A stretch of 47,700 nt of DNA, taken from contig NZ_CP024636.1 of NCBI RefSeq assembly GCF_009728735.1, positions 4,134,854 through 4,182,553 on the forward strand, in the 5' to 3' direction. This document shows, piece by piece, positions 461 to 19,727 of the stretch. Both the position numbers and the translations under genes were made by a program. The stretch's first letter is position 1. Each line of letters opens with the position of its first letter. Under the pieces are notes generated by a model. The model made no database searches. It was not told the origin of the DNA and worked only from the letters and a program-made list of their open reading frames with translations. Origin of the DNA: Pantoea phytobeneficialis (GTDB taxonomy: Bacteria > Pseudomonadota > Gammaproteobacteria > Enterobacterales > Enterobacteriaceae).

Positions 461-1375
461 CTACAGCTTCACCGTAAAAAACCGTGATTCACATTGCCGC
501 GCAATCTCCCACAACTTATTACGAATCACCTGTTTCAGTTGCAGGGTCGATTGCGACTGAGGCCGGTCACGGCGGCTAATCAGCATCACCTCAAACGGCA
601 ACGGCTGTGCCACTGGCAGCAGCTTCAGCTGATCGGCATAACGACAGGCGGTAAACAGATCCACGATCCCCACGCCGCCGCCCGCCAGCACCATGTCGGC
701 AATCACCGAGTAGGTTTTAATCGACAACGACACCCCCGGATTTAACCCCTTATCCCGCAGCGCGCGATGCAGCACACGGCCCAACGGGTCCTGGCTTTGC
801 ATCATCAGCAGGTTATTGGCGCACAGCCATTCAAGGGTGACCGGTTCATTGTGGGTATGATGCAGCGGCAGCAGCGCCACCATTGAGGATTGAAACAAAG
901 GTTCCGCCAGCAGGTCAGCATCCACCTGCTGACCAAATACCAGCGCGAAATCGAGCTGATTATCGAGAATGCTGCGACACAGGGTGCTGAAATGTTCGGT
1001 GACCAACTCCACGCTGACCGATGCCGCCTGTTGTCGCCAGGTGACCAGCGCCGGGGCCAGCACCATCTGACCAAAAGCATGCGCCGCACCAACGCGCACC
1101 GTCTGTCCTTCGCCACGCCGCAGTTGCTCCGTCAGCTCGGTGATGGACTGTAAGCGTTGATACAGTTCTTCCACTTCCGGCAGCAAACGCCGCCCTTCCG
1201 CCGTCACAATCATCCCCTGGGCGCGCCGTTCAAACAGCGCAAAACCAAGCTGCTGCTCGGCGTGGTTCAACACCCGGCTGACATTCGGCTGCGACACATT
1301 AAGCAGGCGCGCCGCACCGCTGATGCTGCCGGTCTGCACAATCGCCTGAAACACCTCAATATGTCGCAATCGCAC
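461..1375 (-). CDS. LysR-family transcriptional regulator
   Basis: The 304-residue protein has the LysR layout: an N-terminal winged helix-turn-helix (residues about 1-60, including GSISGAARLLNVSQPNVSR) and a C-terminal effector-binding domain (about 90-290). The start codon is GTG at 1375. The stop codon of the upstream dipeptidase gene lies at 1380-1378, so the two genes are almost certainly on one transcript. The regulator therefore probably senses a peptide or amino-acid ligand and controls the dipeptidase gene and the divergent transporter operon starting at 2643. This role is inferred from position. The ligand cannot be read from the sequence, and no specific E. coli orthologue was recognised. 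Confidence 0.9.
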   Translation of the reverse strand: MRLRHIEVFQAIVQTGSISGAARLLNVSQPNVSRVLNHAEQQLGFALFERRAQGMIVTAEGRRLLPEVEELYQRLQSITELTEQLRRGEGQTVRVGAAHAFGQMVLAPALVTWRQQAASVSVELVTEHFSTLCRSILDNQLDFALVFGQQVDADLLAEPLFQSSMVALLPLHHTHNEPVTLEWLCANNLLMMQSQDPLGRVLHRALRDKGLNPGVSLSIKTYSVIADMVLAGGGVGIVDLFTACRYADQLKLLPVAQPLPFEVMLISRRDRPQSQSTLQLKQVIRNKLWEIARQCESRFFTVKL

Positions 1376-1377
1376 GA

Positions 1378-2442
1378 TTATTCGCCCCAGGTGGCTTCAA
1401 GCACACGCAGCCAATTGCCGTAGCAAATTTTCTCCAGCAACTCTTGCGAATAACCGCGCGCCGCCAGCGCATCCACCACCAGCGGGAAACCGGCCACGTC
1501 TTTCATATCGCCCGGCATGGTCGCGCCATCCAGATCGGAACCAAAGCCGACGCCATCTTCACCCACTTTTTCCAGCAGATATTCCACATGCCGCACGATG
1601 GCGTCCACCGTGGTGGGCGCGTGACGATCGCCGTCTTCACGCAGGAACGGCACCGCAAAGTTCACGCCGACAAAACCCTGAGTTTCCGCAATCGCTGCCA
1701 GTTGACGATCGGTGAGATTGCGTGACTGGGCACTCAGCGCATGCGCATTGGAGTGGCTCGCCACCAGCGGCGCATCGCTGATCTCAGCGGTGTGCCAGAA
1801 ACCTTTTTCATCCATATGTGACAGATCCACCATGATGCGGCGCTGGTTACAGTCACGCACCAGTTGTTTACCTGCCGCCGTCAGACCATTGCCGATATCA
1901 GGCGAGGAGGGATAACGGAAGGGGACGCCGTCGCCAAACTGGTTCGGACGGCTCCATAGCGGCCCCAGGGTACGTAACCCGCTGGCGTAGAGGATGTCCA
2001 GCAGCTCGCCATGCGTATCCAGCGCTTCCGCCCCTTCAACATGCATCACCACCGCCAGAACCCCTTTACTCATGCATTCACGAATATCACGCACGCTGCG
2101 GCAGATTTTTACCTGGCCCTGCGACGCCTGCTCAATCCGCAGCAATAACGCCAGCATGGAGAAGGTGGCATCGCGCGCAGTGCTGATAATTTCATGAGGA
2201 AAATCTGAGAGGTCTGGCGCACTTCTTGCAACTAGCGGGTGTGATGGCACCCAGGTGGCAAAAATCCCACCTACCATATTTCCGTGCCGGATGCGGGGAA
2301 AGTCCATCTGGCCTGATTCAGTGCCGTTGAAAAAAACATTCACGGCATCGGGCTGATGGTGTTGCCACAGTTTGTTGAGGACATCGTTGTGACCATCAAA
2401 AACCGGGATGGCAATCCGGTTGGCGTTCGGCGAGTCAGACAT
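1378..2442 (-). CDS. Membrane-dipeptidase family (M19) zinc dipeptidase
   Basis: The 354-residue protein belongs to peptidase family M19 (renal or microsomal dipeptidase). The dinuclear zinc site is visible: H18-x-D20 in FDGHNDVL, bridging E136 in HVEGAEALD, H209 in VDLSHM, H230 in VASHSNAHA, and the GSDLDG motif near residue 302. M19 enzymes cleave dipeptides and characteristically accept a D-amino acid at the C-terminal position. No signal peptide is visible, so it is probably cytoplasmic. It is the first gene of a minus-strand pair with the LysR regulator and is divergent from the peptide ABC transporter at 2643, whose imported dipeptides are its likely substrates. The ribosome-binding site upstream of 2442 is weak. 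Confidence 0.92.
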   Translation of the reverse strand: MSDSPNANRIAIPVFDGHNDVLNKLWQHHQPDAVNVFFNGTESGQMDFPRIRHGNMVGGIFATWVPSHPLVARSAPDLSDFPHEIISTARDATFSMLALLLRIEQASQGQVKICRSVRDIRECMSKGVLAVVMHVEGAEALDTHGELLDILYASGLRTLGPLWSRPNQFGDGVPFRYPSSPDIGNGLTAAGKQLVRDCNQRRIMVDLSHMDEKGFWHTAEISDAPLVASHSNAHALSAQSRNLTDRQLAAIAETQGFVGVNFAVPFLREDGDRHAPTTVDAIVRHVEYLLEKVGEDGVGFGSDLDGATMPGDMKDVAGFPLVVDALAARGYSQELLEKICYGNWLRVLEATWGE

Positions 2443-2554
2443 GTTGTATCCGTTTCTTGTTCAGGGGAAAGCGCAAACGCTGCCAGTTGACGGGGCACAA
2501 TGCACCGAAACAGGGCAAGCGGCTGCGTATGAAACAAAAGGCTTAATGCCTGTT

Positions 2555-2584
2555 ATTAATCCTCCTGCCCGGCGGGAATGTCAA
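2555..2584 (-). promoter_or_regulatory. Putative sigma-70 promoter for the dipeptidase/LysR pair
   Basis: On the minus strand a perfect -35 TTGACA (2584-2579) is followed, 18 bp later, by ATTAAT (2560-2555) as a -10. It lies in the 200-bp divergent region between the dipeptidase and the transporter operon, which is AT-rich on the transporter side (2590-2630). A regulator bound here could control both directions. Confidence 0.5.
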
Positions 2585-2642
2585 GACAAAAAACAGCAAA
2601 TAATAATTTTTTTATTTTAATAATCAATAAGTTGGAGTTGTC

Positions 2643-4238
2643 ATGGTAACCAGAAGACGTTTTCTTGCAGGATGCACCGCAGTGCCCTTCCTTTCGTATC
2701 TCAGCCTCAATTCTGCCTTTGCTGCCACGCCCCCCAGCATGCTGGTGATGGCGATGCAGCTGGATAACATGACCAGCCTCGACCCGCATGAAAGCTTTGA
2801 AGCTATCGGCGGCCAGATCTGCGGCAACCTGTATCAGAAGCTGGTCATGCCGGACCCTCAGCAGGCCGACAAAGTGATTGGCGCGCTGGCAAAAAGCTGG
2901 GAAGTGAACGCCGACAACAGCGTTTATACCTTTCACATCGATCCGGCGGCTAAATTCGCCGACGGCACGCCCGTTACTGCCGAAGATGCAGCGTTCTCCA
3001 TCGAACGTATCGTGAAACTGGATAAAAGCCCGGCGTTTATCATTAACCAATTTGGCTTTACCAAAGATAACGTCACCCAGTTGGTGACAGCGAAAGACAC
3101 CCATACGCTGGAGATGAAACTGGGCGCACCGGCCGCTGAAAGCTTCCTGTTGTATTGCCTGTCAGCCACCGTCGGCAGCATCGTATCGAAGAAAGCGTGC
3201 CTGGCGAACCAGCAGAACAACGACTTCGGTAACGCCTGGCTGAAACAGCACAGCGCCGGTTCCGGTGCCTTTACCCTGCGCACCTGGAAAGCCAGCGAAA
3301 CCGTTATTCTGGAACTCAGCCCGCAATTTGCCAACCAAAGCAAAATTAAACGCGTGATCCTGAAGCATATTGCCGACCCGGCGGCCCAGGCACTGATGCT
3401 GAAAAAAGGCGATGTCGATGCCGCTTATGACCTGACCACCGAACAACTGTTGCAGGTAAAAAACGATCCTGCGGTCAATCTGGTCAATCAGTCCCTCTCG
3501 TCCGTGATGTTGATGTCGTGCAACACCAATAACGAATACCTGAAAAAACCGCAGATATGGCAGGCCCTGAAATGGGCGCTGGATTACGACAGCATCCAGA
3601 AAAACATTCTGTCGATGAGCTTCACCACCCATCAGAGTTTCCTGCCGAGTGGTTTCCCGGCAGCGCTGGACGACAACCCATTCCATAAAGATGTCGCCAA
3701 AGCCAAAGCGTTGCTGGCGGAAGCGGGTTATCCGGACGGGTTTGAAATCACCCTCGACCACTACTCGATGCAGCCCTACCCGGATATCGCCCAGGCGATT
3801 CAGACCCAACTGGGCGCGATTGGCATCAAAGTGTCGCTGATTGCGGCGGAAAACCGTCAGGTACTGACCAAAATGCGCGCCCGTCAGCATCAACTGGCGC
3901 TGACCGTATGGGGTGCGGATTACTTCGACCCGAACTCCAATACCGAAGCCTTCTGCGTTAACACCGACAACAGCGACAACGCGCGCAACCGCACGCTGGC
4001 CTGGCGTTGTAGCTGGTCTGATGATGAGTTCAACAAGCTGACCGAGCAGGCGCTGCACGAAGCCGATCCGGCCAAACGTATTGCGTTGTATCACCAGATT
4101 CAGCAGTTGGGTCGCGAGAAGAGTCCGTTTATCTACATGATGCAGAAAACCAAAAACGTCGCCGTCGGCAAAAATATCAGCGATGTCCATATGACGGTGC
4201 TGGAACAATGGCCGTATGAGCAGGTGAAAAAAGCCTGA
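2643..4238 (+). CDS. Peptide ABC transporter substrate-binding protein (SBP_bac_5), Tat-type signal
   Basis: The 531-residue protein is a family-5 extracellular solute-binding protein of the DppA/OppA type. After the signal come LDPHESFEAIGG, then WEVNADNSVYTFHID and FADGTPVTAEDA, which are standard cluster-C motifs. The N-terminus is TRRRFLAG followed by a short hydrophobic stretch ending in SAFA-AT. This matches the twin-arginine consensus, so export folded through Tat is likely, with cleavage after Ala about 27. A good ribosome-binding site (GGAG) precedes the ATG. It is the first gene of a six-gene operon, and its TGA overlaps the permease ATG by one base. Binding of D-containing peptides is inferred from the neighbouring peptidases. 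Confidence 0.9.
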   Translation: MVTRRRFLAGCTAVPFLSYLSLNSAFAATPPSMLVMAMQLDNMTSLDPHESFEAIGGQICGNLYQKLVMPDPQQADKVIGALAKSWEVNADNSVYTFHIDPAAKFADGTPVTAEDAAFSIERIVKLDKSPAFIINQFGFTKDNVTQLVTAKDTHTLEMKLGAPAAESFLLYCLSATVGSIVSKKACLANQQNNDFGNAWLKQHSAGSGAFTLRTWKASETVILELSPQFANQSKIKRVILKHIADPAAQALMLKKGDVDAAYDLTTEQLLQVKNDPAVNLVNQSLSSVMLMSCNTNNEYLKKPQIWQALKWALDYDSIQKNILSMSFTTHQSFLPSGFPAALDDNPFHKDVAKAKALLAEAGYPDGFEITLDHYSMQPYPDIAQAIQTQLGAIGIKVSLIAAENRQVLTKMRARQHQLALTVWGADYFDPNSNTEAFCVNTDNSDNARNRTLAWRCSWSDDEFNKLTEQALHEADPAKRIALYHQIQQLGREKSPFIYMMQKTKNVAVGKNISDVHMTVLEQWPYEQVKKA

Positions 4239-5248
4239 TGCCGTTACTGAAGAAAATCGTCAGCACCCTGAGCAGCCTGGTGCTGACGCTGTTTGGCCTG
4301 TCGGTTTTGACCTTTTTCATTGGCCGCGTGATGCCCACCGATCCGGTGCTGGCAGCGGTCGGTGATAACGCGCCTCAGTCCGTTGTGGAGCGCGTACGTG
4401 CGGAGATGGGGCTGGATCAGCCCCTTTACATCCAGTTTGGTCATTACCTCAATCAGCTGTTACATGGCGATCTCGGCAAATCGATTCTGACCTCCAATCC
4501 GGTCACCACCGATATCGCACGTTTCTTCCCTGCCACTATGGAGCTGGCAACGGCGGCGATTATTATCGCCGCGTTGATCGGTATCCCGCTGGGCGTGTGG
4601 GCGGCGGTGCGGCAAAGCACCTGGGTGGATCAAACCATCCGCGTAGTGTGCCTCGCCGGCCACTCGCTGCCGGTGTTCGTGCTGGCGTTACTCAGTTTGC
4701 TGGTGTTCTACGCGGTGCTGGGTATCGCGCCAGGACCGGGACGTCAGGACATCATCTGGCAGGATATGGTGCCGCAGGTCACCGGTTTCCTCACCATCGA
4801 CTCGCTGCTGGCAGGTGAATATGACGCTTTCCGCGATGCGCTGGCGCATATGGCGCAACCGGTGTTGATCCTCGCTTATTTCAGCATGGCCTACATCACG
4901 CGTATGACGCGTACCTTTATGCTCAACGCCCTGAGCGGCGAGTTCGTGATTACGGCACGCGCCAAGGGCTTATCTGCGGCTCGGGTGATCTGGCGTCACG
5001 CCTTCCCCACCGTGGCGGTGCAACTGGTGACGGTGCTGGCGCTGACCTATGCCGGACTGCTGGAAGGCGCGGTGGTAACGGAAAACGTCTTTGCCTGGCC
5101 GGGCCTCGGGCAGTATCTCACCACCTCGCTGATGAATGCCGACATGAACCCGGTGGTGGGCGCAACCTTGCTGGTCGGCACCGTGTATGTGCTGCTAAAC
5201 CAGTTGGCTGACCTTCTCTATCGACTTTGGGACCCGCGCGTAAAATGA
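4238..5248 (+). CDS. Peptide ABC transporter permease (DppB-like)
   Basis: The 336-residue integral membrane protein has the usual permease-1 features: a first membrane helix at about 10-30, a periplasmic segment with GLDQPLYIQFGHYL, five further helices, and the cytoplasmic EAA loop with ARAKGLSAARVIWRHAFP (about 245-265). That loop contacts the ATPase. It forms a heterodimer channel with the next gene product. It starts one base before the end of the binding-protein gene and its TGA overlaps the next ATG (ATGA at 5245-5248), so translation is coupled. It belongs to the di/oligopeptide/nickel permease family; substrate choice is set mainly by the binding protein. Confidence 0.92.
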   Translation: MPLLKKIVSTLSSLVLTLFGLSVLTFFIGRVMPTDPVLAAVGDNAPQSVVERVRAEMGLDQPLYIQFGHYLNQLLHGDLGKSILTSNPVTTDIARFFPATMELATAAIIIAALIGIPLGVWAAVRQSTWVDQTIRVVCLAGHSLPVFVLALLSLLVFYAVLGIAPGPGRQDIIWQDMVPQVTGFLTIDSLLAGEYDAFRDALAHMAQPVLILAYFSMAYITRMTRTFMLNALSGEFVITARAKGLSAARVIWRHAFPTVAVQLVTVLALTYAGLLEGAVVTENVFAWPGLGQYLTTSLMNADMNPVVGATLLVGTVYVLLNQLADLLYRLWDPRVK

Positions 5249-6144
5249 TCTTTTTCTCTCGTGACTGGCTACTTGATGACACGCCAGCTAACCGCCGTCA
5301 GGCGGTGTGGGGCCGTCGCTATCGTCTGTGGCTCAGCCTGCGCAGTAACCCGCTGGCGATGGCGGGGCTGCTGGTCATTTTCCTGATGTTGCTGCTGGCG
5401 CTGTTTGCCCCGCTGCTGACACCGTTCGATCCTGGCGCGCAGCATCTGGATAACCGCCTTGCGTTACCGTCCTGGGCACACTGGCTCGGCACCGATGAAC
5501 TGGGGCGCGATGTCTGGACGCGCATCATTTATGGCGGGCGCACCACGCTTGGCATGGTGATCGCCGTGGTGTTGCTGACCGCCCCGCTCGGCCTGTTAAT
5601 TGGCTGTATCGCCGGGTATGCCGGTGGATTTGTCGACAAGGCGCTGATGCGTCTGACCGATATCTTCCTCGCCTTCCCGCGCCTGATTCTCGCGCTGGCA
5701 TTTGTCGCCGCACTGAAACCGGGTGTCGAAAGTGCGGTGCTGGCCATCGCCCTCACCGCGTGGCCGCCCTATGCGCGCCTGGCGCGTGCGGAGACGTTGC
5801 AGTTCCGCAACAGCGATTTTATCGCAGCCAGTCGTCTGACCGGGGCAGCGCCATTACGCATTATTCTGCGCCATATCATGCCGTTGTGCGTGCCAAGCCT
5901 GATTGTGCGCGTCACCCTCGACATGAGTTCGATCATCATCACCGCTGCCAGCCTTGGCTTTCTCGGTATGGGGGCACAGCCACCTTCACCGGAATGGGGC
6001 ACGATGATCGCGACCGCGCGCCGTTTCCTGTTCAGCGAATGGTGGGTGCCGCTGATGCCGTGTATCGCTATTTTTCTGACGTCGCTGGCGTTCAACTTTC
6101 TTGGCGACGGTCTGCGCGACGTGCTGGACCCGAAGGAGCGCTAA
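5245..6144 (+). CDS. Peptide ABC transporter permease (DppC-like)
   Basis: The second permease subunit is taken as 299 residues from the ATG at 5245, which overlaps the previous stop codon. An upstream in-frame TTG at 5227 is possible but less likely. Features are the N-terminal OppC-like segment with a membrane helix at about 45-65, the motif WLGTDELGRDVWTRIIYGGR typical of DppC/OppC/NikC, and the EAA loop around AASRLTGAAPLRIILRHIMP. It ends FNFLGDGLRDVLDPKER, the standard ending of this family. It pairs with the 4238-5248 product in the inner membrane. The next gene starts immediately after its stop codon. Confidence 0.92.
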   Translation: MIFFSRDWLLDDTPANRRQAVWGRRYRLWLSLRSNPLAMAGLLVIFLMLLLALFAPLLTPFDPGAQHLDNRLALPSWAHWLGTDELGRDVWTRIIYGGRTTLGMVIAVVLLTAPLGLLIGCIAGYAGGFVDKALMRLTDIFLAFPRLILALAFVAALKPGVESAVLAIALTAWPPYARLARAETLQFRNSDFIAASRLTGAAPLRIILRHIMPLCVPSLIVRVTLDMSSIIITAASLGFLGMGAQPPSPEWGTMIATARRFLFSEWWVPLMPCIAIFLTSLAFNFLGDGLRDVLDPKER

Positions 6145-6972
6145 ATGTTGGTGGAAATTGAAAATCTGCGCATTGCCTTCCGCAATCGTGCTGAGACTTT
6201 TGAAGCAGTGCGTGGCGTCAGCTTTAGCGTTGGCCGCGAGAAGTTCGCCATTGTTGGCGAGAGCGGCTCCGGCAAATCGCTGACAGCGCGCAGCCTGATG
6301 CAATTGCTGCCGGGCAATGCCGAAGTCACGGCAGATGTGCTGCGTTTTGATGGTATCGATCTGCGCGGCGCCAGCGAAAAAGTGCTGCGCCAGATTCGCG
6401 GCAAACGCGTTGGTTTTATTTTGCAGGACCCGAAATATTCGCTGAATCCGGTGATGACCATCGGCCAGCAGATTGCCGAAGCCTGGCGCGAGCACAAAGG
6501 CGGCAGCAGAAAAGCGGCGATGCAGGCGGCGATTGAGTTGCTGGAACAGGTCAAAATCCGCGATCCCGAGACGGTGGCAAAACGCTATCCGCATGAAGTT
6601 TCTGGCGGCATGGGCCAGCGCGTGATGATCGCCATGATGCTGGCACCGGACCCGGAGCTGCTGATTGCTGACGAACCCACCAGCGCGCTGGATGCCACGG
6701 TGCAGGCCGAGATCCTGAAACTGATTGACGATCTGGTTTCTGCGCGCGGCATGGGGTTGATCCTGATCAGCCACGATCTGCCGCTGGTGTCGCATTTCTG
6801 CGATCGCGTGGCGGTGATGTACGCCGGACGGATCGTCGAATTGCTGGAAGCCGGGCAGCTACAACAGGCGCAGCATCCTTATACCCGCGGATTGCTGGCC
6901 TGCCTGCCATCGTTGCGCCATCCGCGCGAGCGGTTGCCGGTGTTGCAGCGCGATGCGGCGTGGCGGGATTAA
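6145..6972 (+). CDS. Peptide ABC transporter ATP-binding protein (DppD/NikD-like)
   Basis: The 275-residue ATPase has Walker A GESGSGKSLT (about 36-45), Q-loop FILQDP, signature SGGMGQRV, Walker B LLIADEP with the D-loop SALD, and the switch His in LISHDLP. The C-terminal oligopeptide-type region begins (HPYTRGLLACLPSLRHP) but stops soon after. The protein is thus about 50 residues shorter than E. coli DppD and closer to NikD in size. The ATG directly follows the upstream stop codon. Unlike the rest of the operon, it is separated from the partner ATPase by 143 bases filled with a REP-like pair and a tandem repeat. Confidence 0.92.
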   Translation: MLVEIENLRIAFRNRAETFEAVRGVSFSVGREKFAIVGESGSGKSLTARSLMQLLPGNAEVTADVLRFDGIDLRGASEKVLRQIRGKRVGFILQDPKYSLNPVMTIGQQIAEAWREHKGGSRKAAMQAAIELLEQVKIRDPETVAKRYPHEVSGGMGQRVMIAMMLAPDPELLIADEPTSALDATVQAEILKLIDDLVSARGMGLILISHDLPLVSHFCDRVAVMYAGRIVELLEAGQLQQAQHPYTRGLLACLPSLRHPRERLPVLQRDAAWRD

Positions 6973-7115: not shown

Positions 7116-7856
7116 ATGATTCAAATCGATAATCTGCGCATCGCCTTTGGTGCGCACACCGTGGTGAAAGGCGTCAGCTTTGCCGTTGGTAACGGCGAAA
7201 GTTTTGGTCTGGTCGGCGAAAGCGGTTCCGGCAAATCCACCATCCTGCGGGCGCTGGCGGGCCTGAATGAACACTGGCAAGGCAGCATGACCTTCGGTGG
7301 TCAGGCGCTGAGTGCCAAACGCAGCCGGGCCTTTTTTCGTCAGGTGCAAATGGTGTTTCAGGACCCGTTCGGTTCGCTGCATCCACGCCAGACCATTGAC
7401 CGTATCCTGCACGAACCGTTGCTGGTACATCAGCTCGATCGCGCCGAGCAACGCATCAGCCAGGCTCTGAGCGAAGTGGGCCTGCCTGCGGCGGTGCGGT
7501 TCCGTTATCCCCACCAGCTCTCCGGTGGGCAGCGTCAGCGTGTGGCGATTGCCCGCGCGTTGATTGCCGAGCCGGAAGTGCTGCTGCTGGATGAACCGAC
7601 CTCCGCACTTGATGTGTCGGTGCAGGCGGAAATCCTTAATTTACTTAGTGATCTTCGCAGCGAACGCAAACTGACCTACATTATGGTGACACACAACCTC
7701 GCGGTGGTGACGCACCTGTGTCAGCGCATTGGCGTGATGCAACATGGCGAGATGGTGGAGCAACTAAGCGCCGATGACCTGCGCGCCCGCCGCATCCAGC
7801 ATCCGCACACCGCGCAACTTTTTGATCTCAGCATGACGCTGGAGGAACCGGCATGA
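7116..7856 (+). CDS. Peptide ABC transporter ATP-binding protein (DppF/NikE-like)
   Basis: The 246-residue second ATPase has Walker A GESGSGKST (about 37-45), Q-loop MVFQDPFGSLHPRQ, signature LSGGQRQRVAIARAL, Walker B VLLLDEPTSALDVS and switch His in VTHNLAVV. It is much shorter than DppF (about 330 residues) and near NikE length, so it lacks the long C-terminal extension. It pairs with the 6145-6972 ATPase to power import. It starts after the REP block, and its TGA overlaps the ATG of the S12 hydrolase (ATGA, 7853-7856), which ties that enzyme to the transporter. The extra 5' distance could allow separate control. Confidence 0.92.
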   Translation: MIQIDNLRIAFGAHTVVKGVSFAVGNGESFGLVGESGSGKSTILRALAGLNEHWQGSMTFGGQALSAKRSRAFFRQVQMVFQDPFGSLHPRQTIDRILHEPLLVHQLDRAEQRISQALSEVGLPAAVRFRYPHQLSGGQRQRVAIARALIAEPEVLLLDEPTSALDVSVQAEILNLLSDLRSERKLTYIMVTHNLAVVTHLCQRIGVMQHGEMVEQLSADDLRARRIQHPHTAQLFDLSMTLEEPA

Positions 7857-10269: not shown

Positions 10270-10285
10270 GACTGCCTCGTTGGAA

Positions 10286-10352: not shown

Positions 10353-11174
10353 TTAATTTTGCGTACTCGCCAGATATGAGAAGGCACTCAGCAGGCTGAT
10401 CAGTGTCCCCATCTGCTCGGCACGATAGCCCACCGTTACCGCATCAATACGTGTTACACCGGGGATCAGGCTGAACAGATCGGCCAGCACCGGTTTGCTC
10501 GCCTGGAGCTGCATCTCATAAGGGGCGCTGAGGCGGGTGGTGCTGACCTGACTGGCACGCTGCACTGCCGCCGTCGCCGCCGCGCGAATGGCGTTTTGCG
10601 CCGCCTGCGGGCTGATGGATTCTGCGCAGGTATGGGAAATCGCGCGTTTTACGCAGACGTAGTCCACCGATGGATAATGCTCGCCCATCCAACCCTTGAG
10701 CTGATCGTCGCCGCTCACCAGCCACAGCGGTGTGCCCTGTTCGGCAGCCGCAGCGGCATAGATATCGCTCTCGCCCATCACTTTGCCGTTGATATGGATG
10801 CGCCAGAACGCGCGACCGTTAATGGTGTGCGCCAGCACGCCCGGCTCTCCTGCCGCGCTGTGATAACCGATAAAAAACAGGCCATCGAACGGTTGCTGCT
10901 CCAGCCCTTCGACCATCGACAAACCGCGAGGTTTGCCCTGCACCAGCCGGGCACGCGCATCGATATTTTCTGCGCGCAGGTTGGTCATTTGCGCGTGGCT
11001 GTCAGCCACTACCACCTCGGTGGCACCACCGGCAAATGCCCCGTCAATGGCGGCGTTGACTTCCTGTTCCATCAATTCACGCGCCAGCTGATATTCCGCA
11101 TGGCCGGGTGAACATTGTTCCGGGCGCATCACGCCCGCGATGCCTTCGATATCGGCGGAGATAAAGATTTTCAT
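10353..11174 (-). CDS. M55-family D-aminopeptidase (DppA-like)
   Basis: The 273-residue protein starts MKIFISADIEGIAGVM, the hallmark of peptidase family M55, in which D8 and E10 of SADIEG bind zinc. Further conserved parts are VADSHAQMTNLRAENID, the metal-site His in FFIGYHSAAG, HTINGRAFWRIHING, and YVCVKRAISHTCAESISP. The Bacillus subtilis DppA member forms a decamer and removes N-terminal D-Ala or D-amino acids from peptides. No export signal is seen. It is the last gene of the minus-strand operon, 118 bases after the P1 peptidase gene with a REP pair in between, and a strong terminator follows. This supports a role in breaking down imported D-peptides. Confidence 0.92.
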   Translation of the reverse strand: MKIFISADIEGIAGVMRPEQCSPGHAEYQLARELMEQEVNAAIDGAFAGGATEVVVADSHAQMTNLRAENIDARARLVQGKPRGLSMVEGLEQQPFDGLFFIGYHSAAGEPGVLAHTINGRAFWRIHINGKVMGESDIYAAAAAEQGTPLWLVSGDDQLKGWMGEHYPSVDYVCVKRAISHTCAESISPQAAQNAIRAAATAAVQRASQVSTTRLSAPYEMQLQASKPVLADLFSLIPGVTRIDAVTVGYRAEQMGTLISLLSAFSYLASTQN

Positions 11175-12341: not shown

Positions 12342-13226
12342 TTAACTCTTCAGTTTGGGATCAAGCGTATCGCGCAGGGCATCGCCCAGCAGGTTAAACG
12401 CCAGCACCGTGATAAAAATCGCCAGTCCAGGGAAGACGCTAACGTGCCACATGCCCGCCATCATCATGTTGCGGCTCATCGCGAGGATGTTGCCCCACTC
12501 CGGGACGTCCGGCTCCGGGCCAAGACCAATAAAACTCAGTCCGGCTGCGGTGAGAATACTGGTGCCGATGCGCATGGTGAAGTAGACAATCACGTTCGAC
12601 AGCGTACCCGGCAGGATATGGCGCAGCAGGATCACCCGGTCCGGCGCACCGGCGCAGCGTACCGCTTCCACATAGGCGGCCTGCTTCAGCGATAAGGTCG
12701 ACGCACGTACGATGCGGGCAAACACCGGTACGCTGAATACCGCCACCGCGATAATCACGTTATTCAGACCTGGCCCGAGAATGGCCACCACCGCAATCGC
12801 CAGCAGCATACCGGGGAAGGCGAACAGCACATCAGAACCACGCATGATCAGCATGTCGATCCAGCGACCATAGTAGCCCGCCAGCAAGCCAAGCATCACG
12901 CCCACCACCATGCCAAGCGTGACTGACACAACGCCAACATATAACGAGATACGTGCGCCAAAGATAATGCGACTGAACAGGTCACGACCGAGATCGTCGG
13001 TGCCCATCCAGTGCGCGGCAGACGGCGGTGACGACAGCGCCATCCAGTCTGGTGCCATCGGGTCCCACGGGGCCAGCCACGGGGCGAAAATCGCCACCAG
13101 TACCAGCAGCAACACAAAACCGCCCGATACCAGCGCCAGTGGATTGTGCACAAAGGCGTGGAGAAAATCGCGCCACGGCGAACGGATCGCCTCCTGCGTG
13201 TTGGCAGGCAGAGATTGCAGACTCAT
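12342..13226 (-). CDS. GsiD/DppC-like peptide ABC transporter permease
   Basis: The 294-residue permease subunit shows the OppC-type N-terminus, the motif WMGTDDLGRDLFSRIIFGAR (about 95-114) and an EAA loop around EAVRCAGAPDRVILLRHILP. It ends FNLLGDALRDTLDPKLKS. The chosen ATG at 13226 overlaps the TGA of the upstream permease and has AGGAG about 5 bases upstream; a GTG one codon earlier is possible. It is clearly a partner of the 13226-14155 permease. The system resembles the E. coli GsiABCD glutathione importer, but the surrounding peptidases and dgcNA suggest other peptide substrates. Confidence 0.92.
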   Translation of the reverse strand: MSLQSLPANTQEAIRSPWRDFLHAFVHNPLALVSGGFVLLLVLVAIFAPWLAPWDPMAPDWMALSSPPSAAHWMGTDDLGRDLFSRIIFGARISLYVGVVSVTLGMVVGVMLGLLAGYYGRWIDMLIMRGSDVLFAFPGMLLAIAVVAILGPGLNNVIIAVAVFSVPVFARIVRASTLSLKQAAYVEAVRCAGAPDRVILLRHILPGTLSNVIVYFTMRIGTSILTAAGLSFIGLGPEPDVPEWGNILAMSRNMMMAGMWHVSVFPGLAIFITVLAFNLLGDALRDTLDPKLKS

Positions 13227-14155
13227 CACGGCTCCTGTCGCAGGCGAATTGCCGGGTTAACCACTGCGTACAGCAGATCCACCAGCAGGTTAATCACAAT
13301 AAATTCAAAGACAAACAGCATAACCAGCGCCTGAATTACCGGCTGATCCTGCGCTTTGATCGATTCGATCAGCAGCCAGCCTAATCCCGGCCAGTTGAAC
13401 ACGCTTTCCACTACGATCGATCCACCCAGCAGAAAACCAAACTGCAAACCAAGCATGGTGATCACCGGGATCAGCGCATTGCGCATCACATGTTTCCAGG
13501 TGACCAGCCGATTACGTAACCCCTTCGCTTTGGCAGTACGCACGTAATCCTCCTGTGCCACTTCCAGGAACGCAGATCGGGTAAAGCGCGCCATCACCGC
13601 CGCCACCGAGGAGCCAAGGGTAATGGCGGGCAGGATGATATCGGTGGGCTTGTTGAAACCGCTGACCGAGAACAAACCAAACGGCATGGCAACAAACTGA
13701 ATCAGCAGCAGGCCCAGCCAGAAAGTCGGCATTGAGATACCGCCCACCGCGACGCTCATCAGCGTCCAGTCCTGCCATTTACCGCGTTTCAGTGCCGCCA
13801 GCACACCCAGAAACAGACCAAGAATCACCGACCAGGCAAAGCCCGCCAGCGCCAGCCACATGGTCGGCATAAAGCCTTTTTTGATCACTTCCAGCACCGG
13901 TTGTTGCGTGCGATAGGTGACGCCGAGATCGCCGCGAAACAGGCCGCCCAGCCAGTGCAGATATTGCTGCGGCAGCGGGTCATTCAGACCAAGATGCTGA
14001 CGCGCGGCTTCCACCGCCGCCAGCGGTGCATCCGGCCCGGCGTAGATACGTGCCGGATCGCCCGGTAGCAGTTTGATGAAGCCGAATACCAGCAGCGAGA
14101 CCACCAGCAGTACCGGGATCATCTCCAGCAGACGACGAATGATGTATGCGAACAT
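13226..14155 (-). CDS. GsiC/DppB-like peptide ABC transporter permease
   Basis: The 309-residue membrane protein starts MFAYIIRRLLEMIPVLLVVSLLVF, the usual first helix of DppB/GsiC permeases. It contains LLPGDPARIYAGPDAP and LGLNDPLPQQYLHWLGG, and the EAA loop TAKAKGLRNRLVTWKHVM (about 220-240). It ends with a membrane helix and LLYAVVNPAIRLR. Its stop codon overlaps the next start. The 145-bp gap to the upstream binding-protein gene is filled by a composite repeat at 14190-14287. With its partner it forms the inner-membrane channel of the second peptide importer in this island. Confidence 0.92.
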   Translation of the reverse strand: MFAYIIRRLLEMIPVLLVVSLLVFGFIKLLPGDPARIYAGPDAPLAAVEAARQHLGLNDPLPQQYLHWLGGLFRGDLGVTYRTQQPVLEVIKKGFMPTMWLALAGFAWSVILGLFLGVLAALKRGKWQDWTLMSVAVGGISMPTFWLGLLLIQFVAMPFGLFSVSGFNKPTDIILPAITLGSSVAAVMARFTRSAFLEVAQEDYVRTAKAKGLRNRLVTWKHVMRNALIPVITMLGLQFGFLLGGSIVVESVFNWPGLGWLLIESIKAQDQPVIQALVMLFVFEFIVINLLVDLLYAVVNPAIRLRQEP

Positions 14156-14287: not shown

Positions 14288-14300
14288 TCACAGCGATGTC

Positions 14301-15842
14301 TTACTTAAATGCCGCCTGGGTATACAGGAAGTTGCCATCTGGCAGCATCGACACGCCGCTCAGGTTGCTGCGTTTACCCACCAGGTTGTCTGGCGTACCG
14401 AGGAAGGCGACCGGGGCATCTTTCCACAGCAGCTTCTGCGCTTCGGCATACGCCACACCACGTTTCGCCGGGTCAGCGGTGGCCAGGCCACCGGCAATCG
14501 CTTTATCCACTGCCGGGTTGCTGTAGTACGACACGTTGTATGAGGTCGGCACCCAGGATTCGGTGGCGTACAGCGGGCGCAGTGCCCAATCCGCATCACC
14601 GGTAGAGGTGGACCAGCCGCCGTAGTAGAGGTCAAATTCCGCCTGCTTCGGATCCTTCACGCCCCACAGTTTGGCGTTGCGCGTCCCGGAATCCATTGGC
14701 GTCACGGTGACGCGAATGCCTGCGGTCGCGAGCTGCGCTTTCAGGAACTGCGCCGCACGCACGCTGGCAGTGGCGTTGGTGGTCCACAGCTTCAGATCCA
14801 GACCGTTCGGATAACCCGCCGCTTTCAGCAGCGCTTTGGCTTCATCCGGTGCGTAACGGTAGTTCGGGTCGCTCTGCTTCTGCCAGAACTGCACCCCTTC
14901 CGGGATGGCGGAGCTGGCTGGCTTGCCCATACCGGCAAACGCCACTTTCAGCCACAGATTGCGATCGATGGCGTAGTTGATCGCCTGACGCACGCGCAGA
15001 TCCGCCAGCGGTTTGTGCTGGGTGTTGATCGCCATGTAGTACAGGTAAATGCTCGGATCGCGCTGGATCGCCAGCTTGCTGTCGTTCTGCACGGTGCTGA
15101 TCAGATCGGACGGCAACGGCCAGATCGCATCCACCTGACCGGACTTGAGTGCGGCCACGCGCGTGGCATCTTCCGGGCTGGGTGAGAAGGTGACGTTATC
15201 GACTTTCGGCCAACCTTTCTGCCAGTAGCCATCGTATTTGGTCAGGTTGACCGCTTTCCCCGGCTGCCAGTCAACAAACTTAAACGGACCGGTACCCACC
15301 GGATGCAGACGCAGCTGCGCTTCGTCCGGGTACTGCTTGAGGATTGCCGGGCTCCACATCACCGCCGACGGATGCGCCAGGGTGTTGATAAAAGCACCAA
15401 ACGACTGGTTCAGCTCAACTTTGACCTGATCCGGGGCCAGTACCGTGACTTTCGCGATCATCTTGTACAGGCTGTTGCGCTTCAGGCCTTTGGTCTGATC
15501 GGCGAGGCGTTCAAGGTTGGCTTTCACCGCTTCCGCATCGAACGGCGTGCCGTCCTGGAAGGTCACGCCTTTGCGCAGCGTCAGGGTGAATTCGGTGGCA
15601 CTGTCGTTGCTGGTGTAGCCGGTCGCCAGCCAGGGTTGCAGCTTCATCTGGGCATCAAACTGGAACAGCCGTTCAAAGATACCGCTCTGCACCGAATAGC
15701 TGACGTTGTCCGAGGTATCGTGCGGATCAAGGCCAGTGATATCGGCATACATTGAGATGTGCAGATCCTGCGCCTGTGCGGCAGCCGCCAGGGAGAGGGT
15801 AAGTCCGAGAGCGAGCGAGGTGCGACGGAAAAACGGGTTCAT
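14301..15842 (-). CDS. GsiB-like peptide ABC transporter substrate-binding protein
   Basis: The 513-residue family-5 binding protein has a Sec signal (MNPFFRRTSLALGL..., cut after AQAQ or AQA, about residue 24). It aligns along its length with E. coli GsiB: LDPHDTSDNVSYSVQSGIFE, FQDGTPFDAEAVKANLER, LHPVGTGPFKFVDW, FYxGWSxSTGDADWAL-type segment and VRQAINYAIDRN. The family captures peptides in the periplasm. The AGGAG ribosome-binding site 6-7 bases before the ATG is strong. It lies 20 bases after the ATPase gene. Its similarity to GsiB suggests gamma-Glu or Glu-containing peptides as possible ligands, which fits the adjacent D-Glu enzymes; this is inference. Confidence 0.9.
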   Translation of the reverse strand: MNPFFRRTSLALGLTLSLAAAAQAQDLHISMYADITGLDPHDTSDNVSYSVQSGIFERLFQFDAQMKLQPWLATGYTSNDSATEFTLTLRKGVTFQDGTPFDAEAVKANLERLADQTKGLKRNSLYKMIAKVTVLAPDQVKVELNQSFGAFINTLAHPSAVMWSPAILKQYPDEAQLRLHPVGTGPFKFVDWQPGKAVNLTKYDGYWQKGWPKVDNVTFSPSPEDATRVAALKSGQVDAIWPLPSDLISTVQNDSKLAIQRDPSIYLYYMAINTQHKPLADLRVRQAINYAIDRNLWLKVAFAGMGKPASSAIPEGVQFWQKQSDPNYRYAPDEAKALLKAAGYPNGLDLKLWTTNATASVRAAQFLKAQLATAGIRVTVTPMDSGTRNAKLWGVKDPKQAEFDLYYGGWSTSTGDADWALRPLYATESWVPTSYNVSYYSNPAVDKAIAGGLATADPAKRGVAYAEAQKLLWKDAPVAFLGTPDNLVGKRSNLSGVSMLPDGNFLYTQAAFK

Positions 15843-15862: not shown

Positions 15863-17734
15863 TTAGCGCGAAACAATGCCGTCAGCGACCCAGTGCTGCG
15901 GAGCAACCTGGCGATAACGGGGTTTAATGACCGTTTCTCCCACCTTGCGTAGCGGCGAGGGGATCTCGCTGTCTTCGAAAGTTCGTTGTGGACGGTTCTG
16001 TGGATCTGCCACCGGCACCGAAGCCAGCAGCCGTTGGGTATAGGGATGTTGCGGGTTATTGAACACCGACTGGCGTGGCCCCAGCTCCACAATCTGGCCG
16101 AGGTACATCACCGCCACGCGGTTGGCGATACGCTCCACCACCGCCATGTCATGCGAGATAAAAATCCACGACACACCGGTTTGTTGTTGCAGATCCATCA
16201 TCAGGTTCACCACCTGTGCCTGAATCGACACATCCAGCGCAGAGACCGCCTCGTCAGCGATAATTACTTTTGGTTTCAGCGCCATTGCACGGGCAATCGC
16301 AATGCGCTGACGCTGGCCGCCGGAAAACTCATGCGGATAACGGCGCGCATGTTCCGGCAGCAGGCCAACACTTTTCAGCAACGCTTCCACCTGCGGCGTC
16401 GCCTCCTCCAGTGACTTCACCACGCCATGCAGCAGCAGCGGCTCGGCAATGGTGAACCCCACGGTTAAGCGCGGATTGAGTGAGGCATAGGGGTCCTGAA
16501 ATACCATCTGGATTTCACGCCTGAGCGGCTGAAACTGTGCCTCTTTCAGGTTGGCAATTTCGTTACCCTGGAAATGGATACTGTCGGCATCGCTGTTGAT
16601 TAAACGCATCAACGCGCGACCGGTGGTGGATTTGCCACAGCCGCTCTCGCCAACAATCGCCAGGGTTTCTCCCGGCCACAGCGTGAAATCGATCTGCTCC
16701 ACCGCATGTACCTGGTGAGTCAGCGCCGAGAAGATGCCGCTGCGAATCGGGTAATACACTTTCAGGCCACGGACATCGAGCAGCGGTTTGTCGTCATAAC
16801 GCGCGGTGCGCTGTTCGGCATTATCGGCTGGCACGGCACCGAGCAGCGGAAAGCGTTGCGGCCAGGCGTGTTCACGCATGTCACCGAGTTTCGGTACCGC
16901 CGCCAACAAGGCTTTGGTGTAAGGATGCTGCGGCGCATTGAAAATCTCCGCCACCGTGCCCTGTTCCACCACATCGCCGCGATACATCACCACCACACGG
17001 TCGGCGACTTCCGCCACCACGCCCATATCGTGGGTAATAAACAGCACCGCCATCTGTTTGGCGCGTTGCAGATCGCGCAGGATATGCAGAATGCGCGCCT
17101 GCACCGTAACGTCGAGCGCGGTCGTCGGCTCATCGGCGATCAACAATTGCGGGTCGCAGGCCAGCGCCTGCGCAATCATCACTCGCTGCCGCATCCCACC
17201 CGATAACGAGTGCGGGTAGCTTTTCATCACGCGATCGACATCGGCAATACGCACCTGGCGCAGCAGTTCGCGCGCACGCGCTTCGGCCTCGGCTTTGCCA
17301 CAAATTTGCTGGTCGCGTAGCGCTTCCGTCAGCTGATCGCCGACGCGCAACACCGGGTTCAGTGAGGTCATCGGCTCCTGAAAAATCATCGACATTTCGC
17401 GGCCACGCAAAGTGCGGCGCTGGGTTTCGTTGAGTTTTTCCAGCTGATGCAGTTGACCGCGACGATCGCGGAACTGGATGCTGCCGCGATCGATACGGCC
17501 TGACGCCGCCAGCAACCCCATCACCGCCAGCGAGGTGACCGATTTACCCGATCCACTCTCGCCAACCACGGCGACGATTTCGCCCTGATGTATTTCGAAA
17601 TTGATGCCTTTCAGCGCCTGGCTAACGCCGCTTCGGCCGCGAAAGCTGACGCTGAGGTCCTGAATAGCGAGTACCGGCGCAGTCGCGGAACCGGCAACGC
17701 TGGCGGCGTTGTGCATAAGTGAAGTGTCCGTCAT
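15863..17734 (-). CDS. GsiA-like dual ATP-binding subunit of a peptide ABC transporter
   Basis: The 623-residue protein (same length as E. coli GsiA) carries two complete ATPase domains. The first (about 20-270) has GESGSGKSVTS, LSGGMRQRVMIAQAL and LLIADEPTTALD. The second (about 315-560) has GESGCGKSTTG, FSGGQRQRIAIARAM and VIIADEAVSALD. In the second Walker B the usual Pro of DEP is Ala, while the catalytic Glu is kept. Each domain ends with the oligopeptide motif HPYT. The C-terminus resembles GsiA closely. One protein thus replaces the two separate ATPases of the facing operon. The gene starts 18 bases after the dgcA stop codon with a GGAG ribosome-binding site. Confidence 0.92.
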   Translation of the reverse strand: MTDTSLMHNAASVAGSATAPVLAIQDLSVSFRGRSGVSQALKGINFEIHQGEIVAVVGESGSGKSVTSLAVMGLLAASGRIDRGSIQFRDRRGQLHQLEKLNETQRRTLRGREMSMIFQEPMTSLNPVLRVGDQLTEALRDQQICGKAEAEARARELLRQVRIADVDRVMKSYPHSLSGGMRQRVMIAQALACDPQLLIADEPTTALDVTVQARILHILRDLQRAKQMAVLFITHDMGVVAEVADRVVVMYRGDVVEQGTVAEIFNAPQHPYTKALLAAVPKLGDMREHAWPQRFPLLGAVPADNAEQRTARYDDKPLLDVRGLKVYYPIRSGIFSALTHQVHAVEQIDFTLWPGETLAIVGESGCGKSTTGRALMRLINSDADSIHFQGNEIANLKEAQFQPLRREIQMVFQDPYASLNPRLTVGFTIAEPLLLHGVVKSLEEATPQVEALLKSVGLLPEHARRYPHEFSGGQRQRIAIARAMALKPKVIIADEAVSALDVSIQAQVVNLMMDLQQQTGVSWIFISHDMAVVERIANRVAVMYLGQIVELGPRQSVFNNPQHPYTQRLLASVPVADPQNRPQRTFEDSEIPSPLRKVGETVIKPRYRQVAPQHWVADGIVSR

Positions 17735-17752
17735 CGTTGCTCCGCGTGCGGG

Positions 17753-18718
17753 TTATAGCCAGATTCGGCCCTGGGAATAGGAGAGGAATGGCGAGCTGTC
17801 TGCCGCCAGCCAAATCGGGCCATCCAGATCGACATGTTCTGCCGCAATCGCCACTGGCAGCGCCGCTTCCATCGCCAGCGATGAACCCAGCATGCAGCCG
17901 ACCATCAGGCGCATATCCAGCTTTTGTGCTTCGGCCACCATCGCCAGCGCTTCGGTTAACCCGCCGCATTTATCCAGCTTGATGTTGATCATTTCGTAGC
18001 GATTGCGCAGTTGCGCGATGTCTTCCCGCGTGTGGCAACTCTCGTCAGCACACACCGGAATCGGATGGGTGAAACGCTGTAAATCCTGATCCTGACCGGC
18101 CGGTAGCGGTTGCTCGACCATCGCGATGTTGTACGGCAGCAGCGCGTTAAGCAGGCTGTGCAGATCCACACCAGACCAGGCTTCGTTGGCATCAATAATC
18201 AGCGTGGCGTACGGGGCCGCAGCGCGGATCGCCGCCACTTTTTCCAGAATGTCGTCACGATTAAGTTTGATTTTCAGCAGGATCGCGCCACGCGATACCG
18301 CATCGGCTGCCGCTTCCGCCATATTGGCAACGCTGTCCAGGCTGAGAGTTTCGGCGGTGATCACCGAAATTGGCTGCTCCTGCTGCGTCAGCTGCCAGAT
18401 TGACTGTTTCGCCAGCGCAGCGCCGAGCCGCCACAGCGCGCAGTCCAGCGCGTTACGCGCTGAACCGGCATGCAGACGGGTTTGCAGATCGACACGGCTG
18501 AGGCCCGCTTCGATGTCAGCGCGCATCGCTTCCAGCTCGGCGTTGACGCTTTCTGGCGTTTCGTCGTAACGCGGCGTAGGTGTACATTCGCCGCGACCAA
18601 TAAAGCCATTCTGCTCCAGGGTGACGCGAATCACCGTCACTGCGGTGCGCGTGCCACGCGAGATGGCAAACGGGCGCGCCAGCGGCAGCTCCAGCACTTC
18701 AATCTGCATGCGCCGCAT
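17753..18718 (-). CDS. dgcA: Enolase-superfamily epimerase, DgcA/L-Ala-D/L-Glu epimerase-like
   Basis: Taken from ATG 18718, directly after the dgcN stop codon, the protein has 321 residues, as in E. coli YcjG. Catalytic K149-x-K151 is in LLKIKL, metal ligands are D176 (IIDANE), E202 (EQPLPA) and D225 (CADESCH), and the opposite base lies in IKLDK (K247/K250). This is the dipeptide-epimerase group of the enolase superfamily. Because dgcN directly precedes it, the likely role is racemisation of N-acetyl-D-Glu to N-acetyl-L-Glu, as described for DgcA. The alternative is L-Ala-D-Glu epimerase for murein peptide recycling. Both roles fit a D-Glu-containing peptide diet. An upstream GTG (18727) has its GGAG too close to serve. 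Confidence 0.85.
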   Translation of the reverse strand: MRRMQIEVLELPLARPFAISRGTRTAVTVIRVTLEQNGFIGRGECTPTPRYDETPESVNAELEAMRADIEAGLSRVDLQTRLHAGSARNALDCALWRLGAALAKQSIWQLTQQEQPISVITAETLSLDSVANMAEAAADAVSRGAILLKIKLNRDDILEKVAAIRAAAPYATLIIDANEAWSGVDLHSLLNALLPYNIAMVEQPLPAGQDQDLQRFTHPIPVCADESCHTREDIAQLRNRYEMINIKLDKCGGLTEALAMVAEAQKLDMRLMVGCMLGSSLAMEAALPVAIAAEHVDLDGPIWLAADSSPFLSYSQGRIWL

Positions 18719-18719
18719 C

Positions 18720-19727
18720 TTAGCCACGCTCCTTCAGCAGCGCCGCGATGTCACTGATACCAAAGCGCACCGGGTCGGTGGCAGGTACGCCAAACTCGGC
18801 ACTGACCTCGGCGCAGTAGGCGCGCGCTTCTTCTTCGCTGTAGCTCGAGGTGTTGATAGCGAAACCGGCCAGTTGCACCGAGTCACTGGTGACGGTGGCG
18901 GCGCGCAGGTTAGCTTCCACGCAATCTTTCAGGCTGACCATCGGTTGATGCGGCAGATGGCGCATATGTGGGCGGCCCATCTCATGACACATCACCAGCC
19001 ACTGCGGCTGCGCACCGTGGATCAGACCCATCGAAACACCGGCGTAGGACGGATGGAACAAGGAACCCTGGCCTTCAACGATGTCCCAGTGATCGGCCTC
19101 GTTAGCCGGTGACAACGCTTCAACCGCACCCGCGATAAAGTCAGCAATCACCGCATCGATCGCGATACCGGCACCCGCAACCAGGATACCGGTCTGACCG
19201 GTGGCGCGGAAATCTGCTTTCAGGCCGATATCACGCATTGCGGCTTCCAGCGCCAGCGAGGTGTACATCTTGCCTACTGAGCAGTCGGTGCCGACTGTAA
19301 GTACACGCTTACCGGTACGTTTTTTGCCGCTGCCAACGTCCAGCTTCGGACGCATATGGCGGATATCAAACAGTTCAACGCCGAATTCCTGTGCCAGCGC
19401 CACCAGCTCAGGCTCATCCACCAAACGATGGTGCAGGCCGCTGGCAACATTCATACCGGCTTTGATGGCGTTGCGCACGGTATCCAGCCAGTGCTGCGGC
19501 AGGTAACCACCGGCGTTGGCGGTGCCGAGCACCAGGGTTTTCGCGCCACGCGCTTTGGCGGTGGCGATGTCGATCTCTTCCAGACCAAGGCTCACGGTGC
19601 AGCCAGGCAGTTTGATTTCGCCAACGCACTGCTCAGGACGCCAGACGTGGATGCCGCGCGCGGTTTTAGCCGCCAGTGGATCGGTTACGTCGCCAAGGAA
19701 AAGCAAATAAGGTTGCGGGATCAGCAT
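18720..19727 (-). CDS. dgcN: DgcN/DUF1611-family N-acetyltransferase (D-glutamate)
   Basis: The 335-residue protein has the DUF1611 layout: an N-terminal Rossmann-like part (LLFLGDVTDPLAAKTARG, LVLGTANAGGYLP) and a C-terminal P-loop-like domain with VGTDCSVGKMYTSLALE (about 145-161), then VEGQGSLFHPSYAG and LVMCHEMGRPHMRHLP. Members described as DgcN acetylate D-glutamate before DgcA inverts it and the L form enters central metabolism. It is the first gene of the operon and its stop codon is one base before the dgcA start. The promoter region upstream carries two touching palindromes. Assignment rests on family and on pairing with dgcA; the acetyl-acceptor is not proved by the sequence. Confidence 0.85.
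   Translation of the reverse strand: MLIPQPYLLFLGDVTDPLAAKTARGIHVWRPEQCVGEIKLPGCTVSLGLEEIDIATAKARGAKTLVLGTANAGGYLPQHWLDTVRNAIKAGMNVASGLHHRLVDEPELVALAQEFGVELFDIRHMRPKLDVGSGKKRTGKRVLTVGTDCSVGKMYTSLALEAAMRDIGLKADFRATGQTGILVAGAGIAIDAVIADFIAGAVEALSPANEADHWDIVEGQGSLFHPSYAGVSMGLIHGAQPQWLVMCHEMGRPHMRHLPHQPMVSLKDCVEANLRAATVTSDSVQLAGFAINTSSYSEEEARAYCAEVSAEFGVPATDPVRFGISDIAALLKERG

Follow-up and report, generated by a model that had tools for sequence, protein, structure and literature searches.

The stretch of DNA described here, referred to as the window, comprises 47,700 nucleotides of Pantoea phytobeneficialis (contig NZ_CP024636.1, positions 4,134,854 to 4,182,553), from a 5.7-Mb genome of 5 contigs. 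Positions 461–19727 hold an island of peptidase genes, peptide importer genes and a gene pair annotated as dgcN-dgcA. The preferred reading, to which a probability of roughly 60% is assigned, is that the island serves to scavenge peptides containing D-residues and/or isopeptide bonds through an expanded operon of the iaaA-gsiABCD type. If this is correct, the island represents a widespread Gram-negative route for eating the peptides left behind by ordinary peptidases.

Family calls and coordinates were taken from Pfam and NCBIfam profile scans of 20 window proteins, reaching 23.6 kb. These agree with an earlier note on this DNA, in which hydrolases of the families M19, S12, M55 and S58 (DmpA/P1) were placed together in 461–19727. 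The profiles likewise confirm its two complete family-5 peptide ATP-binding cassette (ABC) importers, interleaved with the hydrolases and with a dgcN-dgcA-like pair. The M55 protein of the window is 96% identical to the copy of Erwinia sp. S63 and 94% identical to a copy labelled Pantoea trifolii.

The core module has the order (DgcN)-DgcA-GsiA-GsiB-GsiC-GsiD-S58-M55, mostly with the gene of a LysR-type regulator behind it. Synteny was followed through clustered open reading frames and through tblastn of the window proteins against 80 named M55 loci (numbered L) and stretches of further relatives. Thirty-six of the named loci are of the Enterobacterales type (L022–L056 and L094; one Vibrio record is included, as is one “Martelella alba” record whose genes look enterobacterial). 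The titles of the other 44 point mostly to Alphaproteobacteria, in some cases to Firmicutes and in a few to other groups. Genes were counted within 12 kb of M55 at an expect value (E) of 1e-20 or below, some loci being short. S58 was found in all 36 loci of the Enterobacterales type, followed by the GsiD-like permease (32), LysR (32), DgcA (30) and DgcN (23), and then by an IaaA-type peptidase (11), S12 (10), M19 (8) and FAH (6). The 44 other loci yielded S58 in 28, the GsiD-like permease in 23 and the IaaA-type gene in 21, and at the same limits none of them held DgcN, DgcA, LysR, S12 or M19. The core is conserved across Enterobacterales and occurs in Alphaproteobacteria without dgcNA.

A sample of 149 genomes (numbered G) from the family contained M55 in 21, S58 in 26, strong DgcN in 21, S12 in 16 and M19 in 28. 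Of 48 genomes matching PF07755, 27 scored under 100 bits and are left out of the DgcN count, which keeps the split or broken DgcN of G026 and G028; the broken S12 copy of G104 was also kept. In all 21 M55 genomes (broken copies counted) S58 is no more than 3 kb from M55; DgcN is within 12 kb of it in 13 of them and S12 within 5 kb in five. When 398 genomes of the phylum were sampled, M55 was present in 21, with S58 adjoining in at least 16 (compared by eye). The linkage of dgcNA, S58 and M55 holds even where importer genes are absent (L112, L119). The neighbourhood of M55 and S58 is not the product of chance. The earlier note had named scattering of the genes in relatives as the finding that would speak against a shared role; they co-occur and co-localize well beyond chance.

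From the comparison of gene order and proteins, the core looks like an expanded version of the E. coli iaaA-gsiABCD operon. The four subunits of importer 2 occur in the same order as in E. coli and are 40–57% identical to their counterparts. The recurrent core partner in relatives, lying nearby in many of them, is an Asparaginase_2 protein, an isoaspartyl peptidase of the IaaA type (64% identical to E. coli IaaA in the representative L036), and the order IaaA-GsiABCD-S58-M55 is found in L113, L114, L118 and L173. Because this peptidase recurs as a partner of the core, the likely substrates widen from D-peptides to isopeptides. Unlike the E. coli operon, the island adds S58, M55, the DgcA-like and DgcN-like proteins, its own LysR-type regulator and a palindrome. 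The FAH gene of the window occupies the slot that IaaA has in Dickeya and Pectobacterium. It was found in six of the 80 named loci, all Pantoea or Erwinia, and in none of the 80 do FAH and an IaaA-type gene occur together.

As importer 2 is closest to GsiABCD, which in E. coli adjoins an isoaspartyl peptidase gene, the island could also be read as a scavenger of glutathione, gamma-glutamyl compounds or peptides in general (as sulphur or nitrogen sources), with the D-peptidase names misleading. This is very unlikely. All four subunits fall short of their equivalog cut-offs (GsiA 829 of 1077 bits, GsiB 465 of 594, GsiC 394 of 463 and GsiD 410 of 484), and we are aware of nothing that links dgcNA, M55 or S58 to glutathione.

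Under the D-peptide and isopeptide reading, the GsiB-like binding protein and the GsiACD-like pump would import short peptides that ordinary peptidases handle poorly, namely those with D-residues and/or beta or gamma isopeptide bonds. S58 and M55 would then trim N-terminal residues in the cytosol, with IaaA adding beta-aspartyl cleavage in many relatives. The enolase-superfamily enzyme may invert acyl-D-Glu to acyl-L-Glu, either as a dipeptide or in the N-acetyl form, the latter being supplied by DgcN where it is present. The palindrome upstream of dgcN would be the site through which the LysR-type regulator switches the operon. The second module (importer 1, S12 and M19) is predicted to add uptake, with M19 cleaving dipeptides. 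The import of odd peptides followed by intracellular cleavage, as proposed earlier, is the natural reading of the gene set, while the D-activity that had been ascribed to the enzymes goes beyond these data.

The hydrolases and their partners retain motifs of the catalytic type: G242-S243 in S58, S64xxK67 and Y157xN159 in S12, H18xD20 in M19, the P-loop 146–153 in DgcN and K152xK154 in DgcA. In M55, the residues D8, E10, H60, H105 and E135 are invariant in an alignment of 18 sequences. All of these residues are presumed to be catalytic. M55 exceeds its family cut-off with its active-site residues conserved, and S58 does so with its Gly-Ser autocleavage site. S12 keeps the SxxK and YxN motifs and reaches 98 bits against the D-aminopeptidase DAP equivalog (NF009622), below the cut-off of 443. 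No obvious signal peptide was seen in the hydrolases when their sequences were judged by eye.

The DgcN-DgcA pathway of D-glutamate was reportedly described by Yu et al. in 2023. The island genes had been equated in the earlier note with this pair known to convert D-Glu to L-Glu, and this identification is not supported: they form a divergent paralogue pair. Both proteins exceed the NCBI equivalog cut-offs (DgcN with 525 bits over 480, DgcA with 430 over 400), as would be expected if free D-Glu or D-Glu polymers were salvaged, with the peptidases freeing D-Glu, DgcN acetylating it and DgcA racemizing the product. However, the DgcA model does not discriminate, since the genome's own YcjG orthologue passes it too with 422 bits; this protein is 74% identical to E. 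coli YcjG and its gene adjoins that of MpaA. The YcjG model NF011708 (PRK15129, cut-off 343) is passed in turn by the window DgcA (360 bits) and by the canonical-clade DgcA of L128 (346 bits). The N-acetyl-D-Glu racemase name is over-assigned by the NCBI cut-off.

In trees, the island DgcA forms its own clade (support 100/99) apart from YcjG and from canonical DgcA, and a very long branch leads to the island DgcN, likewise a separate clade (support 100/100). “Canonical” here denotes a high score and a separate dgcNA locus, the trees being composed without biochemically tested proteins. In both canonical-clade loci viewed (L128, L131), a D-amino-acid transaminase gene comes after that of DgcA, and the island differs in this respect. 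L131, from genome G105, is itself without DgcN, and no DgcN match was found in that genome. The DLDGP (DxD) motif was considered as a marker of dipeptide versus N-acetyl specificity and proved useless, as it is found in all three clades.

The two genes also come apart. Among the genomes behind 12 named loci, none of the six Pectobacterium genomes (mostly drafts, L037 being a complete chromosome) gave a DgcN match, and both Brenneria genomes have DgcN only away from the cluster. The two Dickeya genomes, Lonsdalea and Martelella carry two DgcN matches each. Conversely, L054 and L108 have DgcN without a neighbouring DgcA. The ratio of non-synonymous to synonymous substitution rates (dN/dS) of the cluster DgcA is 0.042–0.075 among the six Pectobacterium (15 pairs), and 0.110–0.173 against G105, a relative also lacking DgcN, around which a genus search gave a single genome. 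The Pectobacterium DgcA is under purifying selection and therefore has a function even without DgcN. With this retention and the separate clades set against it, the salvage of free D-Glu or its polymers is unlikely. The names dgcN and dgcA should not be taken literally here, and if the preferred reading is right, it is a warning that the NCBI name DgcA covers at least three epimerase clades.

A further candidate is a dedicated use of external murein peptides (L-Ala-gamma-D-Glu-diaminopimelate), whereby the island would be the Gram-negative counterpart of the Bacillus subtilis dpp-ykf locus and would carry out import, trimming, L-Ala-D-Glu epimerization and dipeptide cleavage. M55, a relative of DppA, together with a peptide importer and an enolase-superfamily epimerase gives the outline of dpp-ykf. 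The LysR-type regulator scores best on NF008239, which we take to be the model of the diaminopimelate-responsive LysR, but at 143 bits it is far under that model's cut-off (288), and it is 27% identical to E. coli LysR. No NlpC/P60, MpaA-type or LD-carboxypeptidase family was found among the 20 proteins scanned, and the IaaA-type partners of the relatives are unneeded for murein. Two things make murein recycling in the ordinary sense less likely: ycjG-mpaA forms a locus of its own elsewhere in the genome, and no gamma-D-Glu-diaminopimelate endopeptidase family was found in the island. Overall, a dedicated murein system is distinctly unlikely. In B. subtilis, as far as the consulted text of PMC2954226 extends, ykfA-D lie beside the dppB-E importer and serve murein peptide use. 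Both systems unite an M55 peptidase, a peptide ABC importer and a Glu epimerase of the enolase superfamily in a single locus (PMC2954226, in part, and general knowledge). By the same partial account, the island differs in having no YkfA- or YkfC-type enzymes, in its S58, S12, M19 and DgcN-like proteins and in its Gsi-type importer.

Alignment of the DNA ahead of the first core gene yields a palindrome, ATARCCTNAGGYTAT, and a conserved block, AAACAAGNATTCGTC. The palindrome was searched for with up to two mismatches in the 400 bp upstream of the first core gene, in named loci with dgcN or dgcA, and was found in 30 of 31 core loci. Its distance to the first core gene is 77–111 bp in 26 loci and 222–241 bp in four. 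It was found in none of 19 paralogue loci (canonical dgcNA, ycjG-type or single dgcN), of which L126 covers only about 150 of the 400 bp. All 36 loci together (673 kb) contain 41 matches. The sole match in the window with up to three mismatches is the one at 19819–19833. As so loose a pattern gives about two matches by chance, what counts is that the match is exact and stands at the conserved position, not how many there are. The core seems to have its own switch. The synteny and the shape of the site suggest that the palindrome is probably the site of the LysR-type regulator, and in that case an operator and a regulator can be named for the core. In five of the six Pectobacterium loci, a second near-copy of the palindrome lies near the end of M55, before iaaA-LysR (position 10736 in L035–L038, 9945 in L040).

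The earlier note had treated the whole island as a single system. Its genes do co-occur; yet they fall into two separable modules, the core and a module of S12, M19 and importer 1, which are linked in part of the lineages. The S12-importer 1-M19 block sits between M55 and the LysR gene in the window, in close Pantoea relatives, in Winslowiella and in Dickeya undicola. In P. ananatis or P. agglomerans the LysR orthologue (90%) immediately follows M55, and in L161–L164 the block lies apart from M55. No more than 8 kb separates S12 from M19 in 10 of the 16 S12 genomes of the family sample, and in four of these 10 (G057, G035, G024 and G115) the pair, with importer 1, is remote from M55. No core palindrome was found upstream of the second module in the window with up to three mismatches. 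The idea that it controls both modules jointly was dropped, the sole match being that before dgcN. It might thus be supposed that two unrelated peptide-use modules merely stand side by side, a view compatible with any reading of the core. It is nonetheless somewhat unlikely, as Pantoea, Winslowiella and Dickeya undicola share the nested order M55-(S12..M19)-LysR, 12 genomes have both S12 and M55 (Fisher p 3e-9, uncorrected for kinship), and in G057 an orthologue of the core LysR lies beside M19, remote from M55 (L161, L104).

The intergenic region between M19 and importer 1 has a conserved GTCAAG block of its own, perhaps the site of another regulator. The S12 homologues of four module-free genomes (L166–L169) adjoin a gene of the N-formylglutamate amidohydrolase family.

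Several findings weigh against the scavenging of D- and isopeptide-linked peptides by this operon. The S12, S58 and M55 families include enzymes with L- or beta-substrates. The window's cluster, to which this search was confined, has no IaaA-type gene. Five of the 21 M55 genomes of the phylum sample (G477, G156, G330, G337 and G319) show no neighbouring S58 among the matches listed. Core locus L045 gave no palindrome at up to two mismatches. At the 20 columns that separate YcjG from canonical DgcA, the island clade is YcjG-like in seven, DgcA-like in four and neither in nine, so that these columns are mixed and not decisive as a test of specificity. The four genomes with S12 and M19 away from M55 belong here as well, as does, with regard to joint regulation, the second module's missing palindrome.

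The core is also found on plasmids. M55 homologues occur on 36 PLSDB plasmids, 20 from Klebsiella, 12 from Pantoea, three from Enterobacter and one, a distant homologue, from Microvirga. An S58/P1-type gene is named under the match in 34 of the 36 plasmid rows, and the core is complete, LysR included, in all three plasmid stretches opened (L185–L187). In E. coli the core is chromosomal in five of 5426 genomes, where its DNA is 79.9% identical to that of the window over 92% of 9.9 kb. The copies on a Klebsiella plasmid, on an Enterobacter plasmid and in the chromosome of E. coli AH04 agree at 99.8–99.9% over 11–14 kb, with transposase genes nearby on one or both sides. The near-identical cassette copies of the Klebsiella and Enterobacter plasmids and of a few E. 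coli chromosomes (L184–L187) include the regulator and promoter, and insertion sequences are nearby. On the Enterobacter plasmid, the cassette LysR adjoins another isoaspartyl peptidase gene and dipeptide-importer genes, once more a hydrolase and a second importer but of a different kind. Carriers of the cassette include clinical and wastewater strains. The window itself does not resemble a classical genomic island: there is only a small rise in guanine-plus-cytosine content, tRNAs occur only at 47 kb and no integrase family was found among the 20 proteins scanned, to 23.6 kb.

A more specific proposal, offered tentatively and at clearly less than even odds, is that the island pair is a second, neofunctionalized DgcN/DgcA system for imported peptides. 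It would be housed in a self-contained catabolic cassette with its own regulator and operator, directed at non-canonical (D- and isopeptide-linked) peptides and passed on by plasmids between Enterobacterales of plant-associated and of clinical or wastewater origin. If the preferred reading is right, the core is a nutrient cassette found on plasmids as well as chromosomes.

Comparison with described systems gives partial likenesses. The DgcN-DgcA D-glutamate pathway is cited in the portion of PMC12363236 at hand. The island has genes of both families, adjacent and overlapping, but these form clades distinct from those of the canonical pair in related bacteria, are not followed by a D-amino-acid transaminase gene, stand within a peptide-import operon and come apart in some lineages. 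A described peptide ABC operon with a D-specific hydrolase comes from a strain with a D-Glu acetyltransferase and racemase, for which growth on D-Glu and peptidoglycan is reported. Its hydrolase is a different one, and the part of that description consulted contains no single operon with M55, S58 and dgcNA. Clusters for the scavenging of cyanophycin or beta-Asp dipeptides share an isoaspartyl dipeptidase and transporters, according to the accessible part of PMC10206079. In contrast to these, none of the 20 window proteins scanned belongs to a cyanophycinase family, and the island adds D-type peptidase families. The whole gene set had been thought undescribed as one system, and no such description was found among the matches listed in the open-licence PubMed Central literature, subscription papers being outside this scope.

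The features of the island are given in Table 1. The FAH-family gene was absent from the earlier note, which had held that enzymes and transporters are linked through overlapping start and stop codons. This is so only for ATPase F and S12 (7853–7856, 4 nt) and not for the other enzyme/transporter pairs. The S58 gene is separated from the preceding permease gene by 2 nt, the DgcA-like gene lies 18 nt ahead of the ATPase gene of importer 2, and the 8-nt overlap at 18720–18727 is that of the DgcN/DgcA pair, with no transporter involved.

Table 1. Features of the peptide-use island, in window positions.
Feature	Position	Strand	Basis
LysR-type regulator	461..1375	-	PF00126/PF03466; orthologue directly behind M55 (or M55 + IaaA) in relatives without module 2
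M19 dipeptidase, module 2	1378..2442	-	PF01244 313 bits; closest solved relatives 3ly0/3fdg (PDB E 4e-106)
M19/importer 1 divergent promoter region	2443..2642	.	conserved GTCAAG block; core palindrome absent
Family-5 solute-binding protein, importer 1 (module 2)	2643..4238	+	PF00496
Permease B, importer 1	4238..5248	+	PF00528/PF19300
Permease C, importer 1	5227..6144	+	PF00528/PF12911
ATPase D, importer 1	6145..6972	+	PF00005
ATPase F, importer 1	7116..7856	+	PF00005
S12 serine hydrolase, D-aminopeptidase-like	7853..9364	+	PF00144; nearest solved 1ei5, distant
FAH-family protein	9433..10320	-	PF01557; slot is the IaaA slot of Dickeya/Pectobacterium
M55 D-aminopeptidase-family protein	10353..11174	-	PF04951 324 bits (cut-off 25); relative of DppA, 1hi9
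S58/P1 (DmpA-type) peptidase	11293..12339	-	PF03576 348 bits; Gly242-Ser243 conserved
GsiD-like permease, importer 2	12342..13229	-	57% to E. coli GsiD
GsiC-like permease, importer 2	13226..14155	-	53% to E. coli GsiC
GsiB-like solute-binding protein, importer 2	14301..15842	-	40% to E. coli GsiB; nearest solved 1uqw YliB
GsiA-like double ATPase, importer 2	15863..17734	-	57% to E. coli GsiA
Enolase-superfamily acyl-Glu/dipeptide epimerase, own clade (“DgcA” by annotation)	17753..18727	-	profile scores and tree
DgcN-like P-loop protein, own clade	18720..19727	-	NF041892 525 bits; tree
Conserved AAACAAGNATTCGTC block, likely part of core promoter region	19793..19807	-	upstream DNA alignment
Palindrome ATARCCTNAGGYTAT, centre about 100 bp before dgcN	19819..19833	.	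upstream alignment, pattern search

In some lineages the gene sets appear to be decaying: M55, S58, S12 or DgcN copies are broken or partial in L120 (G104) and L121 (G026). In Pantoea ananatis LMG 2665 (L026, L103) the S58 match is in two pieces and the gene is possibly altered; that of LMG 5342 aligns over 345 residues.

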